Counted from the stretch's first letter, positions 38,359-56,524 are shown. The stretch is DNA of 64,000 bases from Lysobacteraceae bacterium (GCA_023657465.1 JAGTJX010000001.1:648358-712357); one strand, 5' to 3'. Numbers and translations: made by a program. The notes: generated from the sequence alone by a model not told the origin.

Positions 38359-39258
38359 TTAGTGAATTAATATCTTATTCCAGATCTCTTTGACGGTATT
38401 TTCTGATTCTGTCGGATAAGGAGATTGAAACTCCACTTCGTGAATGAGTTTTGCTGAAAAATGAGTTTTTTCATTGGCTAAATCATTTTGAGATAACTGA
38501 AGTTCGTACGAAATTGGACTATGTTTTTCAATCCAACGAAAAATAAGTTCTGGATCAGGGATCATGAAGAAGTGTCCATCTTGTTCATCGACAGCCCACT
38601 CTTTGCGTCGGTAGATTTTTAAGGGACTTGTGTGTTCGAGTAAATCTTTGGGAAGATAAAGCTCACGCATCCAATCCAAAATCGGGACTTGTGCATTGAG
38701 AGCCCGATTCATAAACCACATTACAAAATCCGCACATCCAGCACCCAATCCTGAGCTTGCGATCTGCCCGCCACGATAGTGTCTAAACGAACCAGCACGA
38801 ATCCAAAGATCCAAAAATATTAACATCTCTTCCATAACAGTATCTGAGACAGGGATTTGTATGCTGGCTAATCGACCGTCTTCAGATGCACGATTAAGAA
38901 AGTTCAGACTGTCTTCTGCTGAGTCGAGATCACCATCAAAATCATAATAAAGTGAACTTAAACCAAGGCCTTTACGGATAGTCGTTGAAAATGTTTGAAG
39001 TTTTCGTGCACTCGTCATGGAGGTCATCCAAGAGTGCTGGCCATGTCTGAGTTCGATCAGGATATGTCCGTTCGGAGCATAGCTACTTTTAACAGAGTTC
39101 AAAATTGTAGAAGTCAGTAGGCTACGAGGAGAAATCCAGTTGGTGGGTCTTGGGGCGGAAATCGCGTAGACGATTAGTTCATCGGCTTGTGATACTAATG
39201 CTAGGCTTCCACAAAAAGAAGCGAACATTAGGCTGAGTTTAATCCCCCTCAAAATCAT
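38359..39258 (-). CDS. Secreted paralog A of a three-member family with conserved His/Cys motifs
   Basis: Signal peptide; YAPNGHILIEL, LYYDFDGDLD, FRHYRGG, GAGCADF, IPDPELIFRW. Confidence 0.7.
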   Translation of the reverse strand: MILRGIKLSLMFASFCGSLALVSQADELIVYAISAPRPTNWISPRSLLTSTILNSVKSSYAPNGHILIELRHGQHSWMTSMTSARKLQTFSTTIRKGLGLSSLYYDFDGDLDSAEDSLNFLNRASEDGRLASIQIPVSDTVMEEMLIFLDLWIRAGSFRHYRGGQIASSGLGAGCADFVMWFMNRALNAQVPILDWMRELYLPKDLLEHTSPLKIYRRKEWAVDEQDGHFFMIPDPELIFRWIEKHSPISYELQLSQNDLANEKTHFSAKLIHEVEFQSPYPTESENTVKEIWNKILIH

Positions 39259-39300
39259 TCGGTAAGAATAGCCTCAAAAGGATAGGGTTTCCAACATTGT

Positions 39301-40251
39301 TTAAAGCTTGATTTTTTTCCAATGGGCAATAATCGTTTGTTCTGACTCTCGAGAGTAAGGGGTTTGAAAGCGAATCATTGAGTCATCTAAGGTTTCCTGT
39401 GGTTGGAATTCATCAGGGAAGATTGTGACCCTTTTGGTAAAAGGAGCACTGTATGTCATAATCCACTTCGTCATTTTCTCTGGGTCTGGAATTGAAAACT
39501 TCAACCCCTCTTTTGCTGACTTAGCCCAAGGAATCGTGCTTTTTAGTATACTCGAAATTGAAACCTTCTTTGATTTTCGACCGGGGGCTTCTTGTAACAA
39601 CTCATAAGGTAAGTGAACTGTTCGCATCCATTGGTCTGAAGGGAGATGTCCTTTCATAGCCAATTCAATAAAATACACAGCAAAATCAGCACATCCAGAT
39701 CCTTCGCCTTTTGGAACATTTTTATTACCGCCATAATGTCGGAACGATCCAAATTCAATCCAGTTACTCATAAACTCCATAAGAAGATCAGCTTTCTCAT
39801 CGGTCAGCTGGACTTGAATAATCGCAAGTCGATTGGCATCGGCCGCTTTTTTGATTTCTTCTTTTGTTGTTATTGAAGAATCTAGATCACCACTGAATTC
39901 GCGAATCATGGCCGAAAGACCATACTCATGATAAAAAGTGTCCCAAAGCGTCTTCATTTTATTAGTACGACCCATTCCTGTCAGAACTTCGCTCACGCCA
40001 TAAGCGTTTGGCCTCCGGGTTTTAACATGCACAGCTAGGTGGCCATTAGGAGCGTAATCCAAACTCAGTCCATTCCATAGAGTGGTTCTAAGTAGACTCT
40101 TGGGACTTGACCAATCCAAGGGTTTCGGAGGATCAATAACAAAAATTTGTAGATAAGGAGTCTGAATTTTTCGCTCTTTGGCTAAAGTTTGATTGGCCAT
40201 TAAAGATAGCATAATCATCACAGCTAGTCGTAACACCATGGCGCCATACAT
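39301..40251 (-). CDS. Secreted paralog B of the same family
   Basis: Signal peptide; YAPNGHLAVHV, FSGDLD, FRHYGG, GSGCADF, IPDPEKMTKW. Confidence 0.7.
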   Translation of the reverse strand: MYGAMVLRLAVMIMLSLMANQTLAKERKIQTPYLQIFVIDPPKPLDWSSPKSLLRTTLWNGLSLDYAPNGHLAVHVKTRRPNAYGVSEVLTGMGRTNKMKTLWDTFYHEYGLSAMIREFSGDLDSSITTKEEIKKAADANRLAIIQVQLTDEKADLLMEFMSNWIEFGSFRHYGGNKNVPKGEGSGCADFAVYFIELAMKGHLPSDQWMRTVHLPYELLQEAPGRKSKKVSISSILKSTIPWAKSAKEGLKFSIPDPEKMTKWIMTYSAPFTKRVTIFPDEFQPQETLDDSMIRFQTPYSRESEQTIIAHWKKIKL

Positions 40252-40335
40252 AGTCTGTTTTTCTTATTTTGTATATTATCTCTATTTATTTTTTTTATTC
40301 AATTCGAACAAGGACTTATTTGCAATCTGTCTACA

Positions 40336-41106
40336 TTAATTAATCGTTTTTAAAAAAGCTTCAGATTCTTTTTTTACTAAATCATCTCCGAACTCAATCT
40401 CTTGCATCGAAGCTATTTCTAGAAGTTGTTTTTTAGCGTCTTGTTTTCTAGTCGCTTTTAAATAAGCCTTTGATAACTCAAGTTTTGATTTCAGCATTTT
40501 AGGATGAAGACTCAGAGAAGTTTCGAGAAGTTTAATTGAATCTTCCAGAGTACCCCAGCCAAGACCCATTGTGTTCCTGACCACTTTTGGAGTCTCTGTT
40601 AGTTTAAGGTGTGTTCTACCTAAGATATAATTTGCTAGAGCCAATGATTCGGCAGTGTCGTTTTTAAGTTCAATCGCTTTCTCAGCATCTTTCTTCACTT
40701 GAAGGACGCTTTCACGGGCTCCTAAAATTCCTTTAAAAAGTGCAAGTTTACCATTAGCAGCTGCTCTTCTAATATAACCATTCATCCCATCCGGACGAGA
40801 TGCAATGGCTTGTTCTGCAAAACTCATAGCTTCGTTATAAATATTAAGCTGCTCTTTTTTGTCAGTTTTGAGATCTGCTAAAAACAACAAGACTCGCGAA
40901 GCTCTACAGAGGAGTTCGTAATCATTGTTTTTATCTTTTAGACCTAATCGAATCTTCTCTTGGGCTTCGTTCAGTTGATGTTTTGTAATTAAAGAGTCAA
41001 TTTCGTTTAGCAGTGAAGGAGCCCCAAAAGTCTGAGCGTCAATGAGTGAACCCAATATGAGGGGCATAAGAAAAAGATAATTTTTTTTGTTTTTTTGACT
41101 ATACAT
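40336..41106 (-). CDS. Secreted TPR-like protein
   Basis: Helical repeats YNEAMSFAEQAIASRPDGMNGYIRRAAANGKLALFKG..., LETSLSLHPKMLKSKLELSKAY. Confidence 0.6.
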   Translation of the reverse strand: MYSQKNKKNYLFLMPLILGSLIDAQTFGAPSLLNEIDSLITKHQLNEAQEKIRLGLKDKNNDYELLCRASRVLLFLADLKTDKKEQLNIYNEAMSFAEQAIASRPDGMNGYIRRAAANGKLALFKGILGARESVLQVKKDAEKAIELKNDTAESLALANYILGRTHLKLTETPKVVRNTMGLGWGTLEDSIKLLETSLSLHPKMLKSKLELSKAYLKATRKQDAKKQLLEIASMQEIEFGDDLVKKESEAFLKTIN

Positions 41107-41134
41107 TGTTTATAAATTGTAATTGATATAAAGA

Positions 41135-41944
41135 ATGAATAAAAGATTATTTATTGTATTATTATTTTGTCTCATTTCTAATTTAAATCTAGCTCATTCT
41201 CAGACACGAGATCGACTCACTCTCAGTGGAGAATCTTTAATGAGTTCACCTGTTTCAAGGCAGAGCGATATTCAGTGGATAGAGCGGTTTTTTTTAGATG
41301 AAGAAGGAAACGGATTACTCGGTGTGGGTTTGCAGTCTCGTATATTAAGTATTGATACGAGAAGTCCTCTTTACATTGTTTCTCCACAGTTCACTTGGCT
41401 GCAGTCATTGAATCAAGACTATTCATTTGTCATCAATTTAAGGCCAGGTTTGTATGGTGATTTGAGAGGGAATCTTTCAGACGATTTTCGATTAGAAGGT
41501 GTATTTTTTGTAGACAGAATTCTTAGTGGAGGTTGGACGCTTGGTCTAGGTGCAGCGAGAGGGTCTAATTTTGGAAGAGTGCTTACTGTTCCTGTTCTTC
41601 ATGCGGTTTATGTAGGTGAATCAAGCCTTTTAGATGCGCTTCTTCCTGTTAAAGCTGAGTACTGGATCATGAATTCAGAGCATTTTGAATATGGGGCGAT
41701 TTTCTCTCTCGTAGGATCTCAATATAGAATTGAAGACTTAACTAATACTGCAGATACTCTTCAGTTCGCTAATGGATTAATAGGACCTTCAGCTAGAATG
41801 AAGATTCAAGATAAGTTTTATATTCAGCTGGATGCACTTTTTACTGTTTTAAGAAGATATGAGGTGGGCTTGGCAGAAAACTTAGCGATACAAAACACAC
41901 AGGCTGGTCCAAACCTTAGGCTAACAATGCAGCTCAGATACTAG
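41135..41944 (+). CDS. Putative outer-membrane beta-barrel protein
   Basis: Signal peptide; alternating aromatic/polar beta pattern; ends LRLTMQLRY (aromatic C-terminus). Confidence 0.55.
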   Translation: MNKRLFIVLLFCLISNLNLAHSQTRDRLTLSGESLMSSPVSRQSDIQWIERFFLDEEGNGLLGVGLQSRILSIDTRSPLYIVSPQFTWLQSLNQDYSFVINLRPGLYGDLRGNLSDDFRLEGVFFVDRILSGGWTLGLGAARGSNFGRVLTVPVLHAVYVGESSLLDALLPVKAEYWIMNSEHFEYGAIFSLVGSQYRIEDLTNTADTLQFANGLIGPSARMKIQDKFYIQLDALFTVLRRYEVGLAENLAIQNTQAGPNLRLTMQLRY

Positions 41945-42717
41945 AGTGAATTCAGTTTCTTGAAGAAGTTAAGTCCAGCTGATTTCACGCCTTCAGATTC
42001 TTGATTTCTGAAATACATACGGAACAGGCCTAATGCATTCATTTCGACGACTTGGTCGCGGCTGAGTTTGGTTGCGTGACGAGCGAGAAGAATTCCCTCG
42101 TTTCTTACGAGTACACCCTGATGAACCACTAGTCCGAGAGAATGGGACTTCACTTTGATCAGATTGAAGAATGTCCCGCTAGGGATCTGATCCAGAAGCT
42201 TGGGATGATCGATGATTTGATCGAGCGGTAAATAGGTGAGGGTGACGGGAATCGGTTTCTCTCCTACTGGTGATGTTTTCTTTTTCTGTTTGTACCAAGA
42301 CCTCTTATCGATTTTGGTGTGAGCAGTTTTTAATATTTTAGAATCGAAAAGCCCCGCAGTCACATCTTCAACTATTCCTTTTTGAATATTCGATGGCATC
42401 CAATCCACTTCGATGAAGTGATTACGTTTGAAGTAGTCTGGTTCGCCAGTGGAGTACCGGATCTCGTTCATGTTCTTAGCGAACTCGTCTTGAGTCTTAG
42501 ATCTTGAGAGAGCGATCACAGTCTCTACATAAGTAGTACAATCAAACTGATCGAATCGATAGAGTGGGTCAGTATCAATAGATCCATGTTTGCCTTCACC
42601 GAGTGGATCAAGAACATAGGGCACTCCCAGAAACTGCTTGCTAATCTCCTCAATACTCTGATGGTATGGCAATTCGGCTGAGTAAGAATTGGAGAGGAGT
42701 ATTAGAAAAATAAACAT
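41941..42717 (-). CDS. DUF1460 (NlpC/P60-superfamily amidase-like) protein
   Basis: QFLGVPYVLDPLGEG...YRFDQFDCTTYVETVIALS, HFIEVDWMP. Confidence 0.75.
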   Translation of the reverse strand: MFIFLILLSNSYSAELPYHQSIEEISKQFLGVPYVLDPLGEGKHGSIDTDPLYRFDQFDCTTYVETVIALSRSKTQDEFAKNMNEIRYSTGEPDYFKRNHFIEVDWMPSNIQKGIVEDVTAGLFDSKILKTAHTKIDKRSWYKQKKKTSPVGEKPIPVTLTYLPLDQIIDHPKLLDQIPSGTFFNLIKVKSHSLGLVVHQGVLVRNEGILLARHATKLSRDQVVEMNALGLFRMYFRNQESEGVKSAGLNFFKKLNSL

Positions 42718-42719
42718 GA

Positions 42720-43208
42720 TCAGTGTCGATCGATCTTGGTCACATCTATTTTTGCAGGGAAGCCGCTCACGCTAAAGCTCATCGTCTGATAAGCACCGTC
42801 ACGGACCTTGATACGAATGACATCTGTCTCAGTAATGGCGTTGAATCCCATCTCTGCTGCTTGGAAAGCGAGACGAAGTAAAATTTCATCTCGGTCTGTA
42901 CACTTAGGAATGCTGAGTTTCTTCTTGGATTGCTCAAACAGTGGAAGATTGCCCTTACGACCGATGTAGAAAATATAAACTTCTCGAGCGAGTTCCATCG
43001 TCTCTTCGTACTTGGTTTGCGCTTCAGTCACGTACTTCTGAAAGCAAGAGGGACAGTATTGGGTATGAGTGAGTTCTTGGGGGATTTTCTGCAGAAAAGA
43101 AAACGATCCTTCCTTTAAAAACTCTATGCAGTTTTTGCAGACAGGCTCATTGCAGCATCCGCATTGAGATGTGGCATTGGATTTACGACAATTTGAACAG
43201 GCGCTCAT
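42720..43208 (-). CDS. Small zinc-finger protein
   Basis: CSNCRKSNATSQCGCCNEPVCKNCIEF...YCPSCFQKY. Confidence 0.6.
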   Translation of the reverse strand: MSACSNCRKSNATSQCGCCNEPVCKNCIEFLKEGSFSFLQKIPQELTHTQYCPSCFQKYVTEAQTKYEETMELAREVYIFYIGRKGNLPLFEQSKKKLSIPKCTDRDEILLRLAFQAAEMGFNAITETDVIRIKVRDGAYQTMSFSVSGFPAKIDVTKIDRH

Positions 43209-43255
43209 ATCTCAATTCTACCATATTGATGGGCGTAATGTTATCGTAAGTCTCC

Positions 43256-44449
43256 ATGGAGTTTAAGATAAGCGAAGTCAAAACCGGTCAGGATGTCCGT
43301 GAGTTTATGGCTCTTTCCTTATCTATTTATCAATCCGATCCTCATTGGATCAGACCTATTGACCGAGACATCGAATCTGTATTCGATCCTAAGAGAAATA
43401 AGACTTACTCCCACGGTAGATTAGTCAGATGGATTGCAAAAGACGAGACAGGTAAGACCGTTGGTAGAATCGCAGCCTTCGTGAACGATCGAACAACCAC
43501 CAAGGGTAACGATCAACCCACGGGTGGGATAGGGTTTTTTGAAACTGTGGAGAATGAGAAGCTTGCGCATGGATTGTTTGAGCAAGCGCAATCGTGGCTT
43601 GCCTCTCAAGGGATGCAGGCTATGGATGGACCCATTAATTTCGGAGAGCGGGATAAATGGTGGGGTCTTCTCATAGAAGGATTCGACCAATCACCTAACT
43701 ATCAAAGCAATTATCATCCCAGCTATTATCAGAAGTTTTTTGAATCTTACGGATTTAAACCTTACTTCTACCAGCTCACGTTTGGCCGTAAAGTCGTAGG
43801 GCCAGTGTCCGATCGTATTGGAGAGAAATCTCGATCCGCACTTCAGAATCCAAGTTTCAAGTTTGCTCCCGCTAGCGGTTTGAAAACAGATGCATTATCG
43901 ACCCTTATTCAGACGGTTTATAACAAGGCTTGGGCCGGGAGAGAAGAGATCCCTGAGATCACTCACGAAGCCGCTCTTCACCTAGTGAAGCAGATGAAGC
44001 CAATATTGGATCCAGAGCTCATGTGGTTTGCTTATGATGGGGAGAGTCCGATAGGGTTCTTCTTGTGTGTGCCAGAAGTGAATCAAATATTTAAGTTTGT
44101 GAATGGTAAGTTAGATCTCTTAGGAAAAATCAAATTTCTCTTTCATAAATATTTTGGAGCCAATCATAAAGCACTAGGACTTCTGTTTGGAGTCGTTCCT
44201 CAGTATCATGGGCAAGGAGTCGATGGCGCACTCATCGAAGCGTTTCGAATTCATCACGAAACTAAGAAAAAATACCAAGAAATCGAGCTCAACTGGGTTG
44301 CTGATTTTAATGGAAAAATGATCAAGCTTTGTGAGCAAATCAATACAAAAGTTGTAAAACGTCATGTCACTTATAGAAAACTTTTTAACGAAAATGCTCC
44401 CTTTAAGAGATTTAGGGAGCCGTATGTTTTTGGAGAGCCTACGCTATGA
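43256..44449 (+). CDS. GNAT-like N-acetyltransferase
   Basis: Tandem GNAT-like segments: GKTVGRIAAFVNDRT..., GLLFGVVPQYHGQGVDGALIEAF. Confidence 0.7.
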   Translation: MEFKISEVKTGQDVREFMALSLSIYQSDPHWIRPIDRDIESVFDPKRNKTYSHGRLVRWIAKDETGKTVGRIAAFVNDRTTTKGNDQPTGGIGFFETVENEKLAHGLFEQAQSWLASQGMQAMDGPINFGERDKWWGLLIEGFDQSPNYQSNYHPSYYQKFFESYGFKPYFYQLTFGRKVVGPVSDRIGEKSRSALQNPSFKFAPASGLKTDALSTLIQTVYNKAWAGREEIPEITHEAALHLVKQMKPILDPELMWFAYDGESPIGFFLCVPEVNQIFKFVNGKLDLLGKIKFLFHKYFGANHKALGLLFGVVPQYHGQGVDGALIEAFRIHHETKKKYQEIELNWVADFNGKMIKLCEQINTKVVKRHVTYRKLFNENAPFKRFREPYVFGEPTL

Positions 44450-45162
44450 ATCCAGTCCCCTCACTTCAACCCGGATGTCCTTGGTATGAAATTAGCCAAT
44501 ACGCTCCGCCTAATTTGAAATGGTGTGAAGCGAGTCTCTGTAGTTGGATCACTGAGCCAGCAAATACTTGGTCGAATCTGGCTTACTTGATTGCAGCTAT
44601 AGTGATCTTCAAGATGAGTGAGAAGATTCAGAGTAAAACTTTGAAACGTGTCGCGAAGTATTCGTTTTGGGTTGGTGTGATGTCGTTCCTGTACCATGCA
44701 TCTTATAATTTCTTCGCTCAGGTTTTAGATTTTTTTGGAATGTATCTGATCACGTTTCTTTGTTTAAACATCAGCTTCATCAGAATGGGGTGGATGAGTA
44801 AAGAACGTGAACCCAAATACTTTTGGTTGAGCATAGTTGGCGCTCTCGGAATGATGTTCTTGCTGAGATACCTTAAGCTTCCCTACCAAGGTATTATTTT
44901 AGTTTTGGTGACATTGAATTTAGGATTGGAGATCTGGCTTAAACGTTTAAACGGGGCGAGAGTCAGTATGAAAAACTTCTGGTGGTGCCAAGGTGCTATG
45001 GTTGTAGCGTTTACCTTCTCTGTTTTGGACGCAAAGCGAATCTTCTGTGATCCTGAGAACCACTTTATTCAAGGTCATGCGTTGTGGCATGTTTTTGCTT
45101 CAGTTTCCTTTGTGTTTTGGGTGCTGCATCTAAAACAGTTTGTTGGCAAATCCATCGAATAA
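44446..45162 (+). CDS. Ceramidase-domain (CREST superfamily) membrane protein
   Basis: CPWYEISQYAPPNLKWCEASLCSWITEPANTWSNLAY, FLYHASYNFFAQVLDFFGMY, IQGHALWHVFASVSF. Confidence 0.75.
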   Translation: MNPVPSLQPGCPWYEISQYAPPNLKWCEASLCSWITEPANTWSNLAYLIAAIVIFKMSEKIQSKTLKRVAKYSFWVGVMSFLYHASYNFFAQVLDFFGMYLITFLCLNISFIRMGWMSKEREPKYFWLSIVGALGMMFLLRYLKLPYQGIILVLVTLNLGLEIWLKRLNGARVSMKNFWWCQGAMVVAFTFSVLDAKRIFCDPENHFIQGHALWHVFASVSFVFWVLHLKQFVGKSIE

Positions 45163-45180
45163 TTGTTACGTTGCCTCCTC

Positions 45181-46446
45181 ATGAAAAAACTGGGGATGGG
45201 ATTAACGGCGGCACTTTGTTTTTTAACTCTACAGGGTTTCGATTGGTACACCGATCAAACTGAAACGAGTCTTGATCGCATTGAACAAGCGATCTCTCCT
45301 GAAGACGGGGCACTGGGCTCAGTCATGGCCTCACCATCTAAGCAGAAACCCAATTATTATTATCACTGGATCAGAGATGCAGCGCTCACGATGCGTGAAG
45401 TGTTTGAATGGAGATCTACTGCTCCGCAGTGGTCAAGAGAGACGCTGCTAGATTACGTAGCTTTCTCAAGACAGAATCAACTCACCAAAAATCCAAGCGG
45501 TACAGTCGCAGACAATGGCTTAGGTGAACCTAAGTTTTATCTCGATGGTGAAGCATATTGGGATTCATGGGGGAGACCTCAGAATGATGGCCCTGCACTG
45601 AGAGCGCTTGTCCTCATTGATCTCGCTTATGAATTACTCAAAGAAGGCAAGTCATCAGTCGTCAGAGAATTACTTTACGATTCGAAGCTCCCTGCTCACA
45701 CTGTGATTAAGAGTGATCTTGAATACATCTCCTATCATTGGAAGGATTTGTCGTTTGATCTTTGGGAAGAAGTATATGCCAATCACTTCTACACAAGACT
45801 TGCTCAGTACCAAGCCTTGAAGCGCGGAGCGAAGTTAGCGATCAAGCTTAAGGATAGTGGAGCCGCCCAGTGGTACGAGACTCAATCGAAGCTTGTGTAT
45901 CAGTCATTGGAAAAATTTTACGACCAAGACCGTGGGATTATTTTGGTTTCAATCAATAATAAGAAAAACAAAAGACCCATGGCGGAGAAGTCTTCTGGCC
46001 TTGATGTCGCTGTGATTCTAGGAGTACTCCATGCGGGTAATCCCGATGGAAAATTTTCTGTTTTTGATCCGAGAGTTTTAAAAACTGCACAAGCAATCGA
46101 AAAAGCTTTTGGGGATCTGTATGCGATCAATAAAACAAAACTCGATCGCGAAGGCCGGGTGATGGCTGCTGCAATCGGAAGATATCCGGAAGATACTTAC
46201 GATGGTTTGGCGACTGATGGCGTAGGCAATCCTTGGTTCCTGGCGACTCATGCTTTAGCTGAGTTCTATGCTAAACGCGGTGAGCTCGATCGAGCAGATC
46301 AATTCATGAGACGCTCTCGATATCACACGGCGAGATACGGACATCAGTCTGAGCAGTTTGACAGATCTAATGGAATGATGAGAGGTGCGAGAGATCTCAC
46401 CTGGAGTTATGCAAGTTTCTTAAGCGTAATGAGGTACATGGACTAA
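45181..46446 (+). CDS. Glycoside hydrolase family 15 (glucoamylase-like), secreted
   Basis: YYYHWIRDAALTMREVFEW, DLWEEVYANHFYTRLAQYQAL; ORF extends to 45163, ATG at 45181 fits a signal peptide. Confidence 0.82.
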   Translation: MKKLGMGLTAALCFLTLQGFDWYTDQTETSLDRIEQAISPEDGALGSVMASPSKQKPNYYYHWIRDAALTMREVFEWRSTAPQWSRETLLDYVAFSRQNQLTKNPSGTVADNGLGEPKFYLDGEAYWDSWGRPQNDGPALRALVLIDLAYELLKEGKSSVVRELLYDSKLPAHTVIKSDLEYISYHWKDLSFDLWEEVYANHFYTRLAQYQALKRGAKLAIKLKDSGAAQWYETQSKLVYQSLEKFYDQDRGIILVSINNKKNKRPMAEKSSGLDVAVILGVLHAGNPDGKFSVFDPRVLKTAQAIEKAFGDLYAINKTKLDREGRVMAAAIGRYPEDTYDGLATDGVGNPWFLATHALAEFYAKRGELDRADQFMRRSRYHTARYGHQSEQFDRSNGMMRGARDLTWSYASFLSVMRYMD

Positions 46447-47660
46447 TGGCAAATCTATCCAGCACAGCGACAGCTCCGCAGTCGGTTTCTTTTAAGAGTG
46501 AAAATGAATTTGGGAAAAAATACGCACTCACTATTCTCACCTCGCTTTTTTTCTCTTGGGGATTTCTCACTTGCCTCAATGATATTTTGATTCCTCATCT
46601 CAAAGCATTTTTTACTTTGAGTTACGCTCAAGCAGTTTTAGTTCAATTTGTATTCTTCTCTTCTTACCTTTTGGTTTCGATTCCAGCTTCATGGTTCTGC
46701 GAGAAAGTGGGCTACAGTAGAGGAATGTCCATCGGGCTCGTGGTTGCAGCAGCTGGAGCGTTTGGGTTCTTGGCAGCGGCTGAGTATCAAATGTATTCCA
46801 TCTTCTTAGGTTCACTCTTTGTTCTCGCGTCTGGAATCACACTGCTTCAAGTGGCTGCGAATCCTTATGTCACTTTGATAGGTGATCCTGCGAAGGCTTC
46901 CAGTAGACTCACTTGGGCGGGAGCATTTAATTCACTCGGCACAACAGTGGCGCCGATTGTGGGTTCTGTGATGATACTCTCATCGATGGAAGTCACCACC
47001 GTTCAGAAACCTTACTTCATCTTGGGTTGCACCCTTGTGCTTCTGTCGGTCGTGATGGCGTGGTTGAAGCTTCCAGAAATTAAAACTGGATCAAAAGCAG
47101 AAGTCACTCTTTGGAAAGACATGCTCACTCAGAGAGAGCTCATGCTGGGCGCTTTGGGGATTTTCACCTATGTCGGAGCGGAAGTTTCGATTGGTAGTTT
47201 CTTAGTGAGTTGGCTAGGTGAGGGGTCTGTTGGTGCAATGATTCCAGAGCAAGCGGGTAAGTATGTAGCGTTCTACTGGGGTGGCGCTATGGTGGGTCGT
47301 TTTATTGGTACCCCTCTCTTGGCTAAGTATGCTGTGAACAAAGTCAGTCGCCTCTTCGTAGCGGGAGCTCTCCTTTGTGTGGTGGTATCGGCACTCACTC
47401 AAGGCTGGGTTTCAGTAGTTGCCATCTTGTCTGTAGGGCTTTTTAACTCGATCTTGTTTCCTGTGATATTTGCAGAGACCCTAAACCGTGTAAAACGAGG
47501 AACGGAGAGAGCTTCTGGCGTGCTCTGTTCAGCTATTATCGGGGGTGCTCTCATCCCTGTAGTCCAAGGCCTGGTTGCAGATGGATTCAGTCTCCGTGTG
47601 TCGTTTGTGACACCCCTCATTTGTTATCTATATTTGATCTGGTTTGTTGGCAGATCCTGA
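46446..47660 (+). CDS. Sugar MFS transporter, FucP/GluP-like
   Basis: FFSWGFLTCLNDILIPHLKAFFTLSYAQAVLVQFVFFSSYL, QVAANPYVTLIG, TFVGAEVSIGSFL-like segment. Confidence 0.88.
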   Translation: MANLSSTATAPQSVSFKSENEFGKKYALTILTSLFFSWGFLTCLNDILIPHLKAFFTLSYAQAVLVQFVFFSSYLLVSIPASWFCEKVGYSRGMSIGLVVAAAGAFGFLAAAEYQMYSIFLGSLFVLASGITLLQVAANPYVTLIGDPAKASSRLTWAGAFNSLGTTVAPIVGSVMILSSMEVTTVQKPYFILGCTLVLLSVVMAWLKLPEIKTGSKAEVTLWKDMLTQRELMLGALGIFTYVGAEVSIGSFLVSWLGEGSVGAMIPEQAGKYVAFYWGGAMVGRFIGTPLLAKYAVNKVSRLFVAGALLCVVVSALTQGWVSVVAILSVGLFNSILFPVIFAETLNRVKRGTERASGVLCSAIIGGALIPVVQGLVADGFSLRVSFVTPLICYLYLIWFVGRS

Positions 47661-47785
47661 TATTTTATAATTCAATACAATCAAGCACATATAAATACCT
47701 GATTTAAATGACTATTTTGGTCAATTAATAACTTGATGTGGTGCATAAATAAAGTTAAGATATATAAAGAATCGGAGACATTTAT

Positions 47786-48934
47786 ATGAGCTCACTTAAT
47801 ATGAAAAAGCTAGGATGGTACTCAAATGCGCTGCTCATGGGATCAATGATGATCACAGGCTGCGAAAATCCTCCTTCGTCCATTTATGTTGGTAACACTG
47901 CAATCGATGTAAACTTGCCTAGCTCGTCTAGTGCACATAACGCCGTTTGCGACCCTTTTGATTCTACTGAAGTAGGACTGCCAGAAAACAAAATTTGGGG
48001 TCGAATCTATTCATGGGACCCTTGGTGGAATCCAGAAACCAATAGCTCATCAAGCACACCTCGTGCAGGTCCAAAAAATGTTGCTGGTTACATCTCAGAA
48101 GGTGTGATGCTGGATGTCGAGTTGTATCTTAATCAACTCAACGTTCCTACTCGACCCTTCGATCAAGGTTTCTCTACTCAGGATGCATTAATCTTAAAAA
48201 CTCCACGTGGGGACACTTTGTATGAATATTTTGCTCTCCAAATGGAAGCAAATATTAAGATCGGAAGCAGTGACACCGCTGGCTATTATCAATTCGCTTT
48301 GATCACTGATGATGGCTCAGTCATGCAAATGGATGACAATGGTGTTTTTAGAAATATTGTTAATAATGATGGTAATCACCCTACAAAAATGGCATGTGCT
48401 AGTGAGGCGGTTTATTTTGATTCAAACACGCGTTTGCCAGTCAAAATTAACTACTATCAAGGACCTCGTTACCATATTGCAATGATGCTCATGTGGAGAA
48501 AAGTAGTGGATGCTTCAGCTGCTTCTCTCGTAGAGTCTCAGTGCGGTAAGTCTGGTAACAGCTTCTTCTTCAACTCGAACGTCAGTCCTCCAGTTCCTTC
48601 TGCTAATTATACTGGTTTGATCGGCCGTGGTTGGAAAGTGTTATCAACGGATAACTTCTTATTGCCAGCAGAACACTCAGATCCCACTCCTTGTACTCAG
48701 AGTTGCTTCTCAGACAACTATCAGGCACCTAACTGGAATACTTTTGTGCTCTCAAAACAGAACGTAGATACAGCTAGTATTAAGGTCTTTGTAGGTGGCT
48801 CACAGCTCAGTTCAAGTGAATTCATCTACGATCCTACATTGAACGCTGTGTTCGTGCCTGGATTCAGATCAGGTGACGTGAAGATCGACTTCTGTGTCAT
48901 CCCTGTCGGTGGAGGAGGCGGAATAGGCGTCTAA
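47786..48934 (+). CDS. Lipoprotein with PA14-like domain
   Basis: Lipobox MMITGC; YYQFALITDDGSVMQMDDNGVFRNIVNND...RLPVKINYYQGPRYHIAMMLMWR. Confidence 0.6.
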   Translation: MSSLNMKKLGWYSNALLMGSMMITGCENPPSSIYVGNTAIDVNLPSSSSAHNAVCDPFDSTEVGLPENKIWGRIYSWDPWWNPETNSSSSTPRAGPKNVAGYISEGVMLDVELYLNQLNVPTRPFDQGFSTQDALILKTPRGDTLYEYFALQMEANIKIGSSDTAGYYQFALITDDGSVMQMDDNGVFRNIVNNDGNHPTKMACASEAVYFDSNTRLPVKINYYQGPRYHIAMMLMWRKVVDASAASLVESQCGKSGNSFFFNSNVSPPVPSANYTGLIGRGWKVLSTDNFLLPAEHSDPTPCTQSCFSDNYQAPNWNTFVLSKQNVDTASIKVFVGGSQLSSSEFIYDPTLNAVFVPGFRSGDVKIDFCVIPVGGGGGIGV

Positions 48935-48961
48935 GTTTAGATCTACAAACGATTCAAACAA

Positions 48962-49007
48962 AAAACCCCCGACTGAGAAACCCTCAGTCGGGGGTTTTGT
49001 TTTTTTA
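48962..49007. terminator. Strong intrinsic terminator
   Basis: 16-bp perfect stem AAAACCCCCGACTGAG/CTCAGTCGGGGGTTTT, loop AAACC, T-rich tail; shared between convergent genes. Confidence 0.9.
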
Positions 49008-49020
49008 GTTGATCTAAATC

Positions 49021-49296
49021 TTAATGAGTTGCTTCATGAGATGGTTCTACAGCGTGTTCTTTTGCTTCACCGGTGTGTTGAACTTTGCCTTTGCAATCTT
49101 CACACTCTGTGCAATCACATTTTTCGCCTTCTTTATGGCCTTCAGCACATTTGCAAGTGTCTTTTTTGTGGTTCTCGCAGTCAGTGCATTTAGTGCCTGC
49201 TTTTTTCGCTGATGCAGCTTTCTTTGCAAGAGCAGGAGTTACAGAGAGCGCCAGAGAGAGAGAGAGTACGGACATAACAGTCATTAAAGATTTCAT
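49021..49296 (-). CDS. Small secreted Cys/His-rich putative metal-binding protein
   Basis: Signal peptide ...SVTPALA; CTDCENHKKDTCKCAEGHKEGEKCDCTECEDCKGK...HTGEAKEHAVEPSHEATH. Confidence 0.7.
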   Translation of the reverse strand: MKSLMTVMSVLSLSLALSVTPALAKKAASAKKAGTKCTDCENHKKDTCKCAEGHKEGEKCDCTECEDCKGKVQHTGEAKEHAVEPSHEATH

Positions 49297-49430
49297 TCGT
49301 TCGGGTTCCTTTCGATTAGATTTCTATTCTACGATAGGCCGCAGAAAATGGTAAAAAATTTTGCATGACAATATTTTGACAGCAAAAGAAGAGTTGCCAT
49401 ATTTTACCTAGTCACTAGATAATTTATTCG

Positions 49431-50912
49431 ATGATGAAACTCGCAGTCATCGCAGTGATTTCACTGACATCTATTGGGTACTCTCATGCCTGGACATCAG
49501 GACATACATGGTTATCAGATCTCGATCAAACTACGCTCAAACAACTGATGGGAGTTCCTGAATCAGATCTTAATCATGATTGGACATTGATAGTCCCTTC
49601 CAAGTTTCAAGCACGAACAGACTCAACTGCAGAAGTCTTCGATTGGCGTAACCGAGGTGGTGTGAATTATGTTTCACCCGTTCGTAGCCAAGGCATCTGT
49701 GGAAGTTGTGTAGCATTCGCGATGACTGGAGCACTTGAAACACAAAACAATATTACTTCCGGAATTCCTTGGCTCAATGCTGTCCTCTCTCCCGAGGCAC
49801 TCTTTGCTTGTGGAGGAGGGAGTTGCCAAGGAGGCATGGGACATATAAGAGCTGTCGATTATATGAAAACACTCGGAGTACCCGATGAATCTTGCGCTCC
49901 TTATACGATGGGAGCTACTGGAGATACGGTCAGTTGTGACAGAATCTGTTCTGACTCACGCTCTAGAAGTCTGGTTGTAGAGAATGCGTTTAGACCTTCT
50001 ACAGGACTGATATCAGACATCGACCAAGTTAAGGCTGCAGTACGCAAGGGTCCTCTGTTCTCTCTTATGAGAGTGTATTCGGATTTTCTTTCGTACAAGT
50101 CTGGAGTCTACAAAAATACATCAAAGAACTTCATAGGTGGACATGCAGTTGTCATTGTTGGCTTCGATGATCGTAAGCAAGCTTGGATTATCAAAAACAG
50201 TTGGGGAGAACAGTGGGGTGAAAGTGGGTTTGCCTATGTAGCATACTCCGATGAAGACACTGCAGTGGGATTGTCAACTTGGGGAATGAATCTGTCTGGG
50301 GGACGAGAGCAGACTTATATTGACCACCCTTCTATCGGAAGCATATTGACAGGTGACTCTAAAGTAAGAATGGGAACCAACGTAGAGTTTGCTAAAAAAA
50401 TAATTTTAAAAATTTATGATGAGCGAACAAGCAATTTAAAAGCATCAAGAGAATGTAATGTAGAAAGTAATAGGAAATGTAAAATCAATCTAGATACAAA
50501 TCAAATTCCCGATGGCAAGTACCTCTGGACGGCAGAGACGGAGTCCCTCAGTGGAACAAGCAGATCTATGGTTGAGTACTTCTATGTGCTGAATCAAAAA
50601 CTAGATACTGAAGTCAAGTGGAAGCCTAGGTTTGATATCACGAAGCCAGTGAAAGGTACGATTGAGTTCACGGTCTCACTTAAGGCTCGTCCGGTTCAGT
50701 TTACAGGACTTGCTTTGAATGTCTCAAACACAGTCGGAACGAGCTTCAGTAAGTACTCAGACTCTACGGCTCCAGAAATGATCATGAGGCTCAATACCAA
50801 GATTATTCCAAACGGAAGTTATTCGGTACAATTAACTGCAAGTATTCAGACGAATAAAAAAACTTATACTGACTCTAGTGACTCACTTAGGATACAAATT
50901 TATAACCCATGA
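49431..50912 (+). CDS. Papain-family (C1) cysteine peptidase, secreted
   Basis: VSPVRSQGICGSCVAFAMTGALE, GGHAVVIVGFDDRKQAWIIKNSWGEQWGESGF. Confidence 0.92.
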   Translation: MMKLAVIAVISLTSIGYSHAWTSGHTWLSDLDQTTLKQLMGVPESDLNHDWTLIVPSKFQARTDSTAEVFDWRNRGGVNYVSPVRSQGICGSCVAFAMTGALETQNNITSGIPWLNAVLSPEALFACGGGSCQGGMGHIRAVDYMKTLGVPDESCAPYTMGATGDTVSCDRICSDSRSRSLVVENAFRPSTGLISDIDQVKAAVRKGPLFSLMRVYSDFLSYKSGVYKNTSKNFIGGHAVVIVGFDDRKQAWIIKNSWGEQWGESGFAYVAYSDEDTAVGLSTWGMNLSGGREQTYIDHPSIGSILTGDSKVRMGTNVEFAKKIILKIYDERTSNLKASRECNVESNRKCKINLDTNQIPDGKYLWTAETESLSGTSRSMVEYFYVLNQKLDTEVKWKPRFDITKPVKGTIEFTVSLKARPVQFTGLALNVSNTVGTSFSKYSDSTAPEMIMRLNTKIIPNGSYSVQLTASIQTNKKTYTDSSDSLRIQIYNP

Positions 50913-51796
50913 AACGAGCAACTCTTGCAGTTCTAATGATGATATTGGGTCTGGCTCATGTCGAAGCTAAACCTTCACCGGGATCTGTAGTTTATATTGT
51001 TGCACACCCAGATGACGAGACACTCTTCGGAGGTACACTTGGTAAGCTTCGCGAGAATGGCTATTCTGTATATGGTATCTATCTCACTCGTGGTGAAGGC
51101 GGCAAAGTTAACAAAGTCACAGGGAACCCTTCTGATAACTACTCCATGCGTCCTCTTGAATTAAAAAAAGCAGCAGAGATTTATGGCGTTAAAGAGTTTC
51201 TTCTTCTCAATCAACCTGATCAACCGATACGAGATAAAGAAACAGGTAAGCCATCTACAAAAGGTGAAGAGTTCTTGAACGCCAAGCTTTGGAATATTCC
51301 TTGGATTAAAGCTCGAGTGAACAGTTACTTAGAAATGATTCGTCCTAAAATCATCCTCACACTTGATCCAAAATCATCCGGGATCACTCACGCTCATCAT
51401 CAAGCGGTAGCACAAATTGTGCTCGAGAGTTTAAAAGAATCGAAATTGTCATCTCAACTATCAGGTGTATATGGAATTTTTGAAGATAACTATTATTTAG
51501 ATAAAAAATTTGGAACTTCTAAGAATACTATCACATTCGATACAAGAACATACTCACCAGCGCTCGGAGTGACCTATAAAAAATTCCAAGCTTTAGGAGC
51601 GGCTGCTCATGCAACTCAGGCGACTGGATACATGGGCGAGTTGCCATTGGGATTTGAAAAGTGGGAGCCCCTGACTCAAGAGAAGAATGGTTTAATTTTT
51701 AGAAAGCTTCTGAGGTCTCCACCTCAGCCAAAGGGTCATGTGGCTACATTGATACCTAGAGAAGTAAGAGTCATTGAAGAGCAGGCTCCGAGGTGA
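50909..51796 (+). CDS. PIG-L family deacetylase, secreted
   Basis: VVYIVAHPDDETLFGGTLGKL, YLTRGEGGKVN, HAHHQAVAQIV. Confidence 0.88.
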   Translation: MKRATLAVLMMILGLAHVEAKPSPGSVVYIVAHPDDETLFGGTLGKLRENGYSVYGIYLTRGEGGKVNKVTGNPSDNYSMRPLELKKAAEIYGVKEFLLLNQPDQPIRDKETGKPSTKGEEFLNAKLWNIPWIKARVNSYLEMIRPKIILTLDPKSSGITHAHHQAVAQIVLESLKESKLSSQLSGVYGIFEDNYYLDKKFGTSKNTITFDTRTYSPALGVTYKKFQALGAAAHATQATGYMGELPLGFEKWEPLTQEKNGLIFRKLLRSPPQPKGHVATLIPREVRVIEEQAPR

Positions 51797-53229
51797 ACTC
51801 CTCATTAAAATTTTTCTACAGTTCTATTTTTACTGCCTTCCTTATTATTGGCTGCAGTAGACCTCAACCGCCGAGAGGATTACCTCTATCTTCTGAATTG
51901 GGGTCGTATGGATCCTTCAGATGGACGAGAGTGATCACTCACATGCACACACCTTATTCTTACGATGCGTGTGATAGCGCGGGAATAACTGGATCTTCTG
52001 CTGAGATTAAAGCGGGAGCGGGAGTAATCAATACTTCTTGCTCTTCTAATTTTAGAGAAGCGATCTGTAAAAACAGAATTGATTATACTTTTACAACAGA
52101 TCACGTTGATAATTTTATTTTTTATGACTTCAGTAGACTCCTTCTTTATCAAGCAGGCGATGTTTTGATCAATAGTGGCTTAGGTACTTCTTACTATAAT
52201 CGTATGGTAGGATGTGATGGAGGAGCGTTTGCTCCAGTTCTAAGTGCAGGATTTGAAACACTCTCCATGATTGGTATTGGATTAAAAGCTCACCTGACGA
52301 GTGATCCAACTGAGTCAGTACGAAGATCCGCCTACGAAGGAACAACAGCTGCAACTCGGGTACTGATTCAGTCAGCTCCTTCTGAAGGGGTCGTCATCAT
52401 TCCTCATACGGAAGACAAGTCAGTTGCTACTATTCAGTCACTTGGACCTGATGCCATTGAGCTCTACAACTTACATGCTAATTTGGATCCAAAAATTAGA
52501 AAGAGATCCTTGGGAGCTGGCGGTTACAGTGTGATAGGTGGAATGATCAATTATATTTTAGATCCTTTTAGTGATCTGGCTCCAGATCTTGCGTTCATCA
52601 CCTTCTTGGAGCAGTTTTCTGTTTATACTTCCAAGTGGGCTCAGATACAGGGAGCAGGACAGAAAATTACAGCAGTGGCTGCAGTAGACTCTCATGAAAA
52701 TGTGTTGGCTATGAAAGTCGCTGATGGTGAACGATTTGATTCTTACCGCAGGACAAGTAAGATTGCTTCTAACCTAGTCGCTGTGACTTCTTCAGATATT
52801 GATCTGGTGAAGACAGCAATTAAGAATAATCGGGTTCTCATTGCTTTTGAGGGATTTGGCTCACCAGTAAATTTTGACTTTTCTGCCACAATCAGTGGCA
52901 CGGCATATCGAATGGGAGACACGGGAACACTGGGAGCGCAGACTGCGACTGTGAGAATTGTTGCTCCGACTCTCCATCCATCGTCTGCACAAGGAAGAAC
53001 AGCTCCCGTGATCAGACTCATCTTAAAACGCATCAATACAGATGGTTCTGAGACTAAACTTTCAGAAACAACCAACAGCACATTGACTGCAAGTGTTTCA
53101 ACCGCTTCAATACTTCGAGCTGAAGTCAAAATAACCCCTTACCATTTAAGAGAATATTTAGGAGGATTCGCAAGTTACGCTAACAATGAAAACATTTGGA
53201 TTATTAGTAACCCTATTTACCTTAATTAG
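51793..53229 (+). CDS. Lipoprotein with PHP-like metal-dependent hydrolase domain
   Basis: Lipobox FLIIGC; ITHMHTPYSYDACD, DYTFTTDHVDN, VVIIPHTED, AVAAVDSHEN. Confidence 0.7.
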   Translation: MNSSLKFFYSSIFTAFLIIGCSRPQPPRGLPLSSELGSYGSFRWTRVITHMHTPYSYDACDSAGITGSSAEIKAGAGVINTSCSSNFREAICKNRIDYTFTTDHVDNFIFYDFSRLLLYQAGDVLINSGLGTSYYNRMVGCDGGAFAPVLSAGFETLSMIGIGLKAHLTSDPTESVRRSAYEGTTAATRVLIQSAPSEGVVIIPHTEDKSVATIQSLGPDAIELYNLHANLDPKIRKRSLGAGGYSVIGGMINYILDPFSDLAPDLAFITFLEQFSVYTSKWAQIQGAGQKITAVAAVDSHENVLAMKVADGERFDSYRRTSKIASNLVAVTSSDIDLVKTAIKNNRVLIAFEGFGSPVNFDFSATISGTAYRMGDTGTLGAQTATVRIVAPTLHPSSAQGRTAPVIRLILKRINTDGSETKLSETTNSTLTASVSTASILRAEVKITPYHLREYLGGFASYANNENIWIISNPIYLN

Positions 53230-53749
53230 TTCTGTGCATGCAGATGTTCCTAAGTGGGAAGCGAGCACGGGATTCCCGCAGATTTTGCGTGCGGGGAAGT
53301 ACGGCTATCAGATTGGTGAGTTTGAAGGTTATTGGAATGCAGGTTTTATGAAGTTTGGAATCAGTCGCATTGGCTTGGAATCTTACGGAATCGAAGTGGG
53401 CATACGTACTCCTGTTTACAAAAAAATATACGCAAGTCTCTCAGCAGGTTGGATGAGTTTCACTGGAGCTGTTGATTTGTCTTCCATTGCTATCGAAACA
53501 GGACCGGTAGCTTCTACAGTTTCGGCACAGCTCTTGGGATTTTATTTCATGCCTGCGATTGGTGGAAGATTCCCTATCAGTGACTCCCTCGAGTATGGAT
53601 TCGACATTGGGCTTCAGATTCCTGTTCTTGCTTGGGGTTTTATGGCCTCAGACTGGATTACTACAAGTGTCACTCAGGGAGCGACGATACAGCGACTGGC
53701 ATATTTACCTGTACCTCACATCACATTAGTGAGAATCAGCTGGAGATGA
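53186..53749 (+). CDS. Putative outer-membrane protein
   Basis: Signal peptide TLFTLISSVHA; beta-rich, ends HITLVRISWR; overlaps preceding gene. Confidence 0.5.
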   Translation: MKTFGLLVTLFTLISSVHADVPKWEASTGFPQILRAGKYGYQIGEFEGYWNAGFMKFGISRIGLESYGIEVGIRTPVYKKIYASLSAGWMSFTGAVDLSSIAIETGPVASTVSAQLLGFYFMPAIGGRFPISDSLEYGFDIGLQIPVLAWGFMASDWITTSVTQGATIQRLAYLPVPHITLVRISWR

Positions 53750-54402
53750 GTTTAAAATACCTCTACCGAGACAAAGATCTCATTGCAGTACATAAACCCG
53801 CAGGATCAGTTGTCTATCGAGATGGTTCTCATGAAAATGTACTTGTTCTCCAAGATCACCTGAAAGAGCAAGTCGCGAGAAGTATCTTCCCCGTGCATAG
53901 ACTTGATAAAGGAACTTGCGGTGTGATCCTCTTCGCTCTGAACGCTGAAGCAGCCGCATTCTTTCAGAAACTCTTCGCAGGACGTGGAATCAAAAAGTAT
54001 TATATTGCACTCGTTGAAGGAGCGATTCCTAAGCAAGGTAAAATTTCTGAGCCTCTCATGGGCAATAAAGACAAAATAAAAAAACCAGCAGTGACGGTAT
54101 TTGAAAGATTAAAAGTTGGAAAAATCAAAGGCAAAGAGGTTTCACTTGTAGAGCTGAGACCTGAGACGGGTCGTTATCACCAGATCAGACGGCACTTGAA
54201 GTTCCTGGGGCATCCAATCTTGGGAGATACACAGTATGGTGGGTCTACTGACATTGCTAACAGAACCATGCTCTCTGCTGTTTGTATTGAGCTCACGATT
54301 CCTAAGACAGGCAAGAAGCTCGTGATCGAAACTCAGCCTGATCAAGATTTTCTTAAGATCAGTAGTGCGCTGCGTGGATTTGAAGAGTCAAACTCTACTT
54401 GA
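53746..54402 (+). CDS. RluA-family pseudouridine synthase
   Basis: VHKPAGSVVYRDG, FPVHRLDKGTCGVILFA, LRPETGRYHQIRRHLKFLGHPILGDTQYG; ATG at 53746 with ggag SD. Confidence 0.9.
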   Translation: MSLKYLYRDKDLIAVHKPAGSVVYRDGSHENVLVLQDHLKEQVARSIFPVHRLDKGTCGVILFALNAEAAAFFQKLFAGRGIKKYYIALVEGAIPKQGKISEPLMGNKDKIKKPAVTVFERLKVGKIKGKEVSLVELRPETGRYHQIRRHLKFLGHPILGDTQYGGSTDIANRTMLSAVCIELTIPKTGKKLVIETQPDQDFLKISSALRGFEESNST

Positions 54403-54422
54403 AAGGCTCCGCTACCAATCAT

Positions 54423-55697
54423 TTATTTCTTATCCAAGCATGCTGCTTGATGCTTGAATTGATATTCTACGGATTGTGGGAAGACGGTTGGGAGTAATGT
54501 TAGATCGAGTTTAATTTCAGGGTCAGTAGAATCCATGCAGAGGTTCTGAATGAAGATCTTGAATGAAGATACGCTAGGACCTACGTGTAAATCTGTCATT
54601 CCTCCATTCTCCAAAGTATAGCTCCGGTAAGTGAGTTGATAGGCAAGGAGGTGAGTCATCATGACTCCTAAGCTTAAAGAAAGCACGGTTTTGAATATTG
54701 GTGACGGATGGCGAAAAGCAAGTACCAGCAAGTTTGAAAACAAAAAAAGTAAAGGAATGAAGAGTGGCATGAAGTAGTGAGTGTGAGATGCGTCTACTTT
54801 GAGTATGAAGAAGTAGATCGAATGAGCCAAGATACAGAGAACAAAGAATTTAATTTTAGAATCGTTTAGGTAGCGAAATGCCATGAATAAGGTAAGTGGC
54901 AGAATTAACCAATAGATATCAAAAGGAATGGTAGAAAAAAAATGAGAAAGACTGCCGCCTGTGAAATACTTCATACACATGACTGAGAGAGACTGCAGGG
55001 AGAAGAGAATGTCTCTTGGAAAATTCCTGAGTGCGTCCAACCAAGGGATAGGGTTTCTGGATCCACCATTCATCATTCCGTTATAGAGCGTAGGCAAGTA
55101 GAGGGCAGTAGGAATCAAAAAGCCAATAGCTCGCTTGAGGAGGTTTTTGATGGATACCTCTCGAATGAGAGCAGAGACAATGATCAGAGATACACTCATG
55201 AGATGGGTCGAGAACAGTAATCCCGAAGCAATTCCTGAGAGGAAATGTCTCTGTTTTTTTTCAGAGAACGTGAACCAAATGAGAAGTGCTGAGAAGAAAA
55301 ACTGAAACGTATTGTCCAAAGGTAATCTTGCATAAAATGAGAGAAGCGGAGAGAGAAGCCCAAAGAGTAAAAACTAAAGATCAGCTCCTCTTTTTAGGTG
55401 GCGCTTGCAAAAATAAAAACCAACCAGAAGTGGAGAAGTAAAAATCAAGTTATGTAAAAGCCCAAGGTCAATGACTTGTGCGGTGAATTGTCTGAAGACG
55501 TAATAGATCCATAGTGGAATAGGTCCATAAGTTGGAATCGTATTGTTTGCCAACGATTGATCAAGGATGAGTTGAAGTTGTGGTTCGTCGAGAAAAAAAG
55601 AAATATCGCCTGGGAAAACAAATCTGAAGACAAAAAGCATGAGAATGCTGATTCCAGCTATTCTTTCCAGAATGATTCGTTTGGAGTCGGTACCCAT
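54423..55697 (-). pseudogene. GT39/ArnT-like polytopic membrane protein interrupted by one in-frame TAG
   Basis: ORFs 55374-55697 and 54423-55319 are in the same frame; the intervening 18 codons (FLLFGLLSPLLSFYARLP) are open, separated from the first ORF only by TAG at 55374-55376. Confidence 0.65.
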
Positions 55698-56524
55698 GTT
55701 CGGTCTACTTTTAGTCCTTTGGCTTTTCCTCTGAAGAATAACTCATAATCGCCTGATGGGGACTTCTTTTCTTGGTTCCAAGTAGTTTTAACCCACCGGT
55801 GCATTTCGTCTGGATCCCAAAAATTAAGTTTTCGCTGAGGTTCGTTCTCTCTAGCCCAACGATCTTTTGCATAGAGTAGTGCAATCTTGAGGAAGGATAC
55901 TTTTCTTCCAGAGTCAGGACCTCCAATGTATTTTTCAGGTATATGGATAGTTTTGTTCCAAGAAGCCACCCACTTGGGATCTAGGACTCCTGCCACATCG
56001 AGGAAGCTTGCGCCGAATGCTGAGCAACCTCCGCCTTCGCGATATCTCGGACGATTGACAAGGCCATAGTGTTGGTCGAATCCGAGTTGCTGATATTCTT
56101 TATGATAGTCGAGCATTCTTCTACAAGTCGTTGGATTAACTTCGATTCGAAGGAGGCTTAAGTTTCCTTTTGCACTACGTCTTTCAAGTTCTGCAGATAG
56201 GTCTTTTTCTGTCTCCATGTAGCCACGGAAGTCATAATAGAGGATTCCGAATCCGTACTTTTGCTTGAAAAGCATATCGGGAAACGAAATATTATTATCA
56301 TCTTGCACCATTCCAGTAATGATTTTCTCTTGTCCGCATTCTACTTCGATGCTGACGTGACCAATCTTGCGACTTTCTTTTGCAAGGCGATTAAGAATCA
56401 CAGTACGGGCTAGTTTCCCTGGAGAATTCCAATTAATGCCATAGGGTGTCGGGTAAAAATTAAGGGTGACGTGATCTGCTAGAGCAAAACGAGTTAGGAT
56501 TTTTAGCCAAAAAAGAACAGCCAT
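55658..56524 (-). CDS. Secreted paralog C of the His/Cys-motif family
   Basis: Start at MAVLFWLKILTRFALA (56524); INWNSPGKLARTVILN, GHVSIEV, LYYDFRGYME, HYG, GGGCSAF, WDPDEMHRW. Confidence 0.65.
   Translation of the reverse strand: MAVLFWLKILTRFALADHVTLNFYPTPYGINWNSPGKLARTVILNRLAKESRKIGHVSIEVECGQEKIITGMVQDDNNISFPDMLFKQKYGFGILYYDFRGYMETEKDLSAELERRSAKGNLSLLRIEVNPTTCRRMLDYHKEYQQLGFDQHYGLVNRPRYREGGGCSAFGASFLDVAGVLDPKWVASWNKTIHIPEKYIGGPDSGRKVSFLKIALLYAKDRWARENEPQRKLNFWDPDEMHRWVKTTWNQEKKSPSGDYELFFRGKAKGLKVDRTWVPTPNESFWKE

Follow-up and report, generated by a model that had tools for sequence, protein, structure and literature searches.

The window analyzed here, a 64,000-nucleotide stretch of DNA from a Lysobacteraceae bacterium (GCA_023657465.1, JAGTJX010000001.1:648358-712357), encodes three related proteins, two from tandem genes and one from a gene some 15 kb away. 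The original prediction, made from the sequence alone, described three open reading frames, and each is found where it was placed (table 1). We propose that they represent a family that has no name in the databases and that probably lies within a known superfamily, that of the circularly permuted NlpC/P60 proteins.

Table 1. Family members, their predicted active-site residues and other features of the window (positions counted from its first letter)
Feature	Position	Strand	Remarks
Family member 1	38359..39258	minus	299 aa; signal peptide; ATG start; predicted active site H65, Y161, C175
Member 1 His65, predicted general base (GH motif)	39064..39066	minus	position from motif
Member 1 Tyr161, HYR/HYG site (Tyr is the conserved residue)	38776..38778	minus	position from motif
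Member 1 Cys175, predicted nucleophile (GCADF)	38734..38736	minus	position from motif
Family member 2	39301..40251	minus	316 aa; signal peptide; ATG start; predicted active site H71, Y173, C187; AlphaFold model
Member 2 His71	40039..40041	minus	motif position and conservation
Member 2 Tyr173	39733..39735	minus	motif position and conservation
Member 2 Cys187	39691..39693	minus	motif position and conservation
Family member 3	55658..56524	minus	288 aa; N-terminal export signal doubtful; predicted active site H56, Y153, C167; AlphaFold model
TPR-repeat secreted protein	40336..41106	minus	same strand as the tandem pair, immediately upstream of it
DUF1460 gene (PF07313)	41941-42717		Pfam E 5e-39
Secreted canonical papain-like protein	49431-50912	plus	QGICGSC ... 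GGHAV ... NSWG motifs
Membrane glycosyltransferase-like gene	54423-55697	minus	two same-frame pieces; in-frame stop near 55374-55376
OPT oligopeptide transporter	56616..58757	plus	divergent neighbor of member 3

The three proteins are homologous to one another, with pairwise BLASTP E values of 3e-52, 6e-20 and 2e-18 at identities of 33, 22 and 28%, respectively. All of the shared motifs that had been listed for them occur in all three, with GH at residues 64, 70 and 55 of members 1, 2 and 3, HY at 160, 172 and 152, GC[AS][DA]F at 174, 186 and 166, and [PW]DP[ED] at 234, 255 and 236. None of the three matches a Pfam or NCBIfam model at E values up to 10, a search of PDB sequences returned no meaningful match, and a search of PHROGs returned a single match at chance level. 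Likewise, no consistent Pfam or NCBIfam match is found among 33 members of the family. Signal peptides had been assigned to all three proteins; they are clear in members 1 and 2, but member 3 has only a short hydrophobic start interrupted by K/R. The form of member 3 given here begins at an ATG, and the same open reading frame could begin at a TTG at 56629.

Conservation was counted in an alignment of 115 members from across the phylum Bdellovibrionota and in a smaller set of 33. In the smaller set the invariant columns are H71, Y173, G186 and C187 (numbering of member 2). In the larger set the GH histidine is kept in 113 of 115 members, and so is the GC cysteine, on whose conservation in wider homologs the original prediction had hung. 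The glycine of the GH motif is G in 94 members and S in 21, whereas the DP and W of the C-terminal motif are strongly kept. The predicted HY(G) site stands in part: its tyrosine is conserved (Y in 107 of 115, F in 6) and forms a third conserved active-site position, but the adjacent histidine is variable. A T or S, and not an acidic residue, is found in 91 of 115 members about 14 residues after the GH histidine, a possible counterpart of the third polar residue that permuted enzymes carry on the strand after the histidine strand.

The two members that lack the histidine also lack the cysteine and have Phe in place of the tyrosine. These proteins, L172 (genome G214; motifs PLGLVAV, RHFG and GGNDM) and L173 (genome G312; motifs PFGAAGA, KNFG and GATDT), are sisters in the tree, and their branch retains an open frame and the remaining fold signature. 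The joint loss of both residues in one branch is what would be expected if the histidine and the cysteine work together, and L172 and L173 are, judging from their motifs, natural candidates for inactive enzymes.

AlphaFold models, each built from six sequences, were obtained for member 2 (predicted local distance difference test score, pLDDT, 78.5; predicted template modeling score, pTM, 0.82) and member 3 (pLDDT 70.3, pTM 0.73). In both models the order of elements is strand, helix, GH-strand, strand, helices, strand, a helix that ends before the tyrosine loop, and the Cys-helix, which in these predictions is the order of a permuted papain core (strand, helix B, His-strand, strand ... Cys-helix). 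Both models agree with the original prediction that a strand begins at GH and a helix at the cysteine, and the loop from the tyrosine to the cysteine is modeled with low confidence.

The defining features of permuted NlpC/P60 enzymes are a His/Cys dyad in which the histidine comes first, a signature tyrosine, a polar third residue and S1 pockets that are hydrophobic (PMC3142127; also PMC7387801). As yardsticks we used 20 Peptidase_C92/YiiX and 54 Lnb_N/DUF4105 sequences from the same bacterial order, in all of which H, Y and C are invariant. The spacing from Y to C is 14-15 residues in the family, 13-14 in most YiiX sequences (18-19 in two) and 7 in Lnb_N, and that from H to Y is 94-126 in the family (mostly 95-105), 65-93 in YiiX and about 98-105 in Lnb_N. 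A conserved proline follows the cysteine by mostly 29 residues in the family and by mostly 25-27 in Lnb_N. In profile-profile comparisons with hhalign, in which scores were set against column shuffles, the family scores 21.0 with Lnb_N, a value that no shuffle reached in sets of 60 and of 30. With nine NlpC/P60 sequences the score is 17.3 (reached by 1 of 30), and with YiiX it is 15.4 (equaled by 8 of 60). The accepted pair of Lnb_N and YiiX itself scores just 21.8 in the same test. These results favor Lnb_N, and not YiiX, as the nearest family, the profile score giving a direction and not a proof. The Pfam model of Lnb_N (PF13387) matches 0 of 33 members at E values up to 1. The original assignment to circularly permuted NlpC/P60-like proteins is supported by the His-then-Cys order, the tyrosine in between, the placement on strand and helix, the joint loss of H and C and the agreement with the published H/Y/C signature (PMC3142127), but the specific kinship with YiiX is not. 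Two other candidates were rejected. YkuD L,D-transpeptidases (PF03734) carry a histidine shortly before the cysteine in S/T-x-GC-x-R, whereas histidine and cysteine are about 110 residues apart in the family (score 15.8, 2 of 30 shuffles), and DUF1460 (PF07313) scores 13.5, which 8 of 30 shuffles reach.

Based on these comparisons, we propose that the three proteins are thiol enzymes of an unnamed family, that their core is circularly permuted and papain-like, of the NlpC/P60 type and nearest to Lnb_N/DUF4105 in layout, and that they act on acyl chains; we put the probability of this proposal at roughly two in three. In the numbering of member 2, H71 of the GH motif would activate C187, the cysteine with which the central helix begins, and the conserved tyrosine (Y173) would help to hold the carbonyl of the substrate. 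The cysteine would then accept the acyl group as a thioester, from which it would be handed to water or to an amine. The probable substrates are extracytoplasmic, namely acyl chains carried by phospholipids, lipoproteins or lipopeptides, and relatives without an export signal would act inside the cell. Permuted members whose activity has been characterized work on acyl chains (PMC12994826; PMC7387801): Lnb (DUF4105) is reported to be the lipoprotein N-acyltransferase of Bacteroides, and Tox-Act1 is a phospholipase whose conserved histidine and cysteine are required (PMC12994826).

Several findings weigh against this proposal. For neither model did a Foldseek comparison with the PDB find a solved relative (the best E values were 2.3 and 0.65, none falling below 0.6), and the models were built on six sequences only. 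The profile match to Lnb_N is weak (E 0.02, P 0.021, probability 2%) and confined to the region around the Cys-helix, and when single sequences are scored with the Lnb_N profile, members lie only slightly above background (area under the curve about 0.66-0.70). A "GD" motif has been described for the papain cluster (PMC10318531), and it is not present in strand 1 of the family, which reads LxLYFYPSP; the Lnb_N sequences listed in this analysis likewise do not have it. Finally, six members have Phe for the tyrosine, and besides the two proteins without H and C these are a basal clade of four that keeps both residues; the tyrosine is therefore not strictly required. In favor of the proposal, a virophage DUF4105 protein ranked fourth (E 0.95) in a Foldseek comparison with BFVD, which gave non-significant matches only. 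Structural diversity in the papain superfamily exceeds the reach of automated comparison (PMC10318531).

The surroundings of the genes bear on the choice of substrate. Among 40 member loci sampled across the phylum, peptide-handling neighbors recur in several lineages, namely genes for M19 dipeptidase, gamma-glutamyltranspeptidase, the OPT transporter and Dpp/Opp-type ABC transporters (loci L224, L225, L228, L234, L236 and L244-L247, and the OPT gene of the window). The pattern was noticed after the fact, and the link between the family and peptide-handling genes is suggestive. It underlies the main alternative, that the proteins are cysteine amidases or peptidases acting on peptides of the peptidoglycan stem or on other small peptides in nutrient scavenging, and not on acyl chains. 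In particular, among the immediate or second neighbors, an M19 membrane dipeptidase occurs with two subfamilies that differ from each other and come from two bacterial families, gamma-glutamyltranspeptidase occurs in a Bacteriovoracaceae-type clade, OPT transporters stand beside member 3 and in another clade, and dipeptide/oligopeptide ABC transporter genes are found in two more; canonical NlpC/P60 enzymes, moreover, cleave peptidoglycan peptides. Against this, the lineages are not independent, most of the 40 loci are without such neighbors, and the His-before-Cys NlpC/P60 enzymes characterized to date are lipid-directed and have hydrophobic S1 pockets (PMC3142127, PMC12994826). We consider a peptidase unlikely, although it is the strongest competitor to an enzyme of acyl chains. 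Slightly more doubtful is a combination of the two, in which the family would remove acyl chains from lipopeptides or lipoproteins and the resulting peptides would be cut and imported by the recurrent neighboring peptidases and transporters; the family would here be intermediate between YiiX (in its Y-to-C spacing) and Lnb_N (in its H-to-Y spacing and C-terminal proline).

It is also conceivable that these Cys/His proteins have some other, unrelated fold, such as a new hydrolase fold, and that their likeness to permuted NlpC/P60 proteins is convergent or fortuitous. The lack of Foldseek matches in the PDB and of Pfam matches, together with the weak profile match, would fit such a protein, but the three residues H, Y and C fit a permuted papain core in identity, order and spacing, and so do the histidine at a strand start and the cysteine at a helix start, and we regard this explanation as improbable. 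Least probable of all is that the proteins serve as another N-acyltransferase of lipoproteins that does the work of Lnb, which the closeness of Lnb_N and the reported activity of the Bacteroides protein (PMC12994826) might suggest. In the source genome, Lnt scores above the curated cut-off with 254 bits and one true Lnb_N protein is encoded as well, so that a housekeeping or main N-acyltransferase role is unlikely. Nor would such a role fit a family whose copies are divergent and number from one to six, which about 70% of the sampled genomes of the phylum lack, and some of whose members seem cytoplasmic.

The putative acyl-chain enzymes are widespread in the phylum. They are present in 23 of 58 relatives and in 101 of 340 sampled Bdellovibrionota genomes, usually in one to three copies per genome. 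Labeled relatives are Bdellovibrionales and Bacteriovorax records. A scan of genome contigs with narrow patterns found Bdellovibrionota-type records only, which makes it likely that the family is restricted to this phylum. Searches of viral contigs and plasmids found no relative. The source genome (2.83 Mb, 4 contigs) has six paralogs, the highest number in the sample: besides the three of the window, two lie on contig 1 and another is on contig 2. The expansion that had been suggested is real in number but is not recent. In the tree the six paralogs are placed in separate parts, and member 1 pairs with a protein of another genome and not with its tandem neighbor (support 100/90); the duplications, that of the tandem pair included, are therefore old, and the placement rules out a recent local expansion. 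Most members have an N-terminal signal sequence, whereas at least 14 of 115 begin almost at the first strand and are, from this start, probably cytoplasmic. Members without an N-terminal export signal include L007, L013, L014, L017, L020, L021, L024-L026 and L030. In several members of the tandem-pair subfamily (L007, L012-L017, L020, L021), the gene comes after a PrmA-like methyltransferase gene, which is itself preceded by an RNase E/G-like gene.

Other features of the window and of related loci are as follows. The gap between the TPR gene and the tandem pair is 84 bases and that within the pair 42 bases, from which it is possible that the three genes are co-transcribed. The DUF1460 amidase-like gene that had been noted nearby is real, but an opposite-strand gene lies between it and the tandem pair. 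The source genome contains two DUF1460 genes and no match to the Peptidase_C92 or NLPC_P60 Pfam models. The glycosyltransferase-like gene, a pseudogene or an assembly error, shares 40 bases with the 3' end of member 3, and the window also encodes a secreted protein with canonical papain motifs. At two loci, probably from Bdellovibrio (L242, L263), a phosphatidylserine decarboxylase gene is convergent with the family gene, and a 6-pyruvoyl tetrahydropterin synthase-like gene lies on its other side.

Permuted NlpC/P60 proteins elsewhere include Lnb and LnsA, which proved to be N-acyltransferases of lipoproteins, and a toxin that is a phospholipase. The family described here would be a further one of this kind, in a phylum of bacterial predators, which the profile libraries that we tried miss and which has a defined H-Y-C site and members that have naturally lost it. 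Its proteins are concrete targets for understanding what these bacteria do with acyl lipids and lipopeptides, and a family definition would allow databases to annotate genes that are currently "hypothetical".

Among known systems, the DUF1460/AmiA-like amidase (PF07313) resembles the family in that its gene in the window lies nearby and carries an N-terminal export signal. LRAT/HRASLS proteins (PF04970) share the permuted His-then-Cys order and, presumably, acyl-thioester chemistry; searches of the PDB by sequence and by fold matched no LRAT structure to the family. Peptidase_C92/YiiX (PF05708) shares the H-Y-C signature, a near-equal Y-to-C spacing and the strand-helix-GH-strand start. The family, however, has Thr/Ser where YiiX reportedly has Glu (in BcPPNE, Glu 15 residues after the histidine), no GD motif, a longer H-to-Y segment and no profile match above shuffles. 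Lnb_N/DUF4105 (PF13387) differs in having NC with the tyrosine 7 residues before the cysteine, whereas the family has GC[AST] with the tyrosine 14-15 before. Furthermore, the family has a C-terminal part of its own, with W and DPxxxxxW motifs, and is usually a single protein of about 300 residues, whereas Lnb_N proteins have about 600-700. Nevertheless, Lnb_N and the family have in common the GH histidine on a strand, the conserved tyrosine, the cysteine, a conserved proline downstream, a similar H-to-Y distance and, between strands three and four, an insertion that contains Gly, and this pair gives the best profile score among the families compared.

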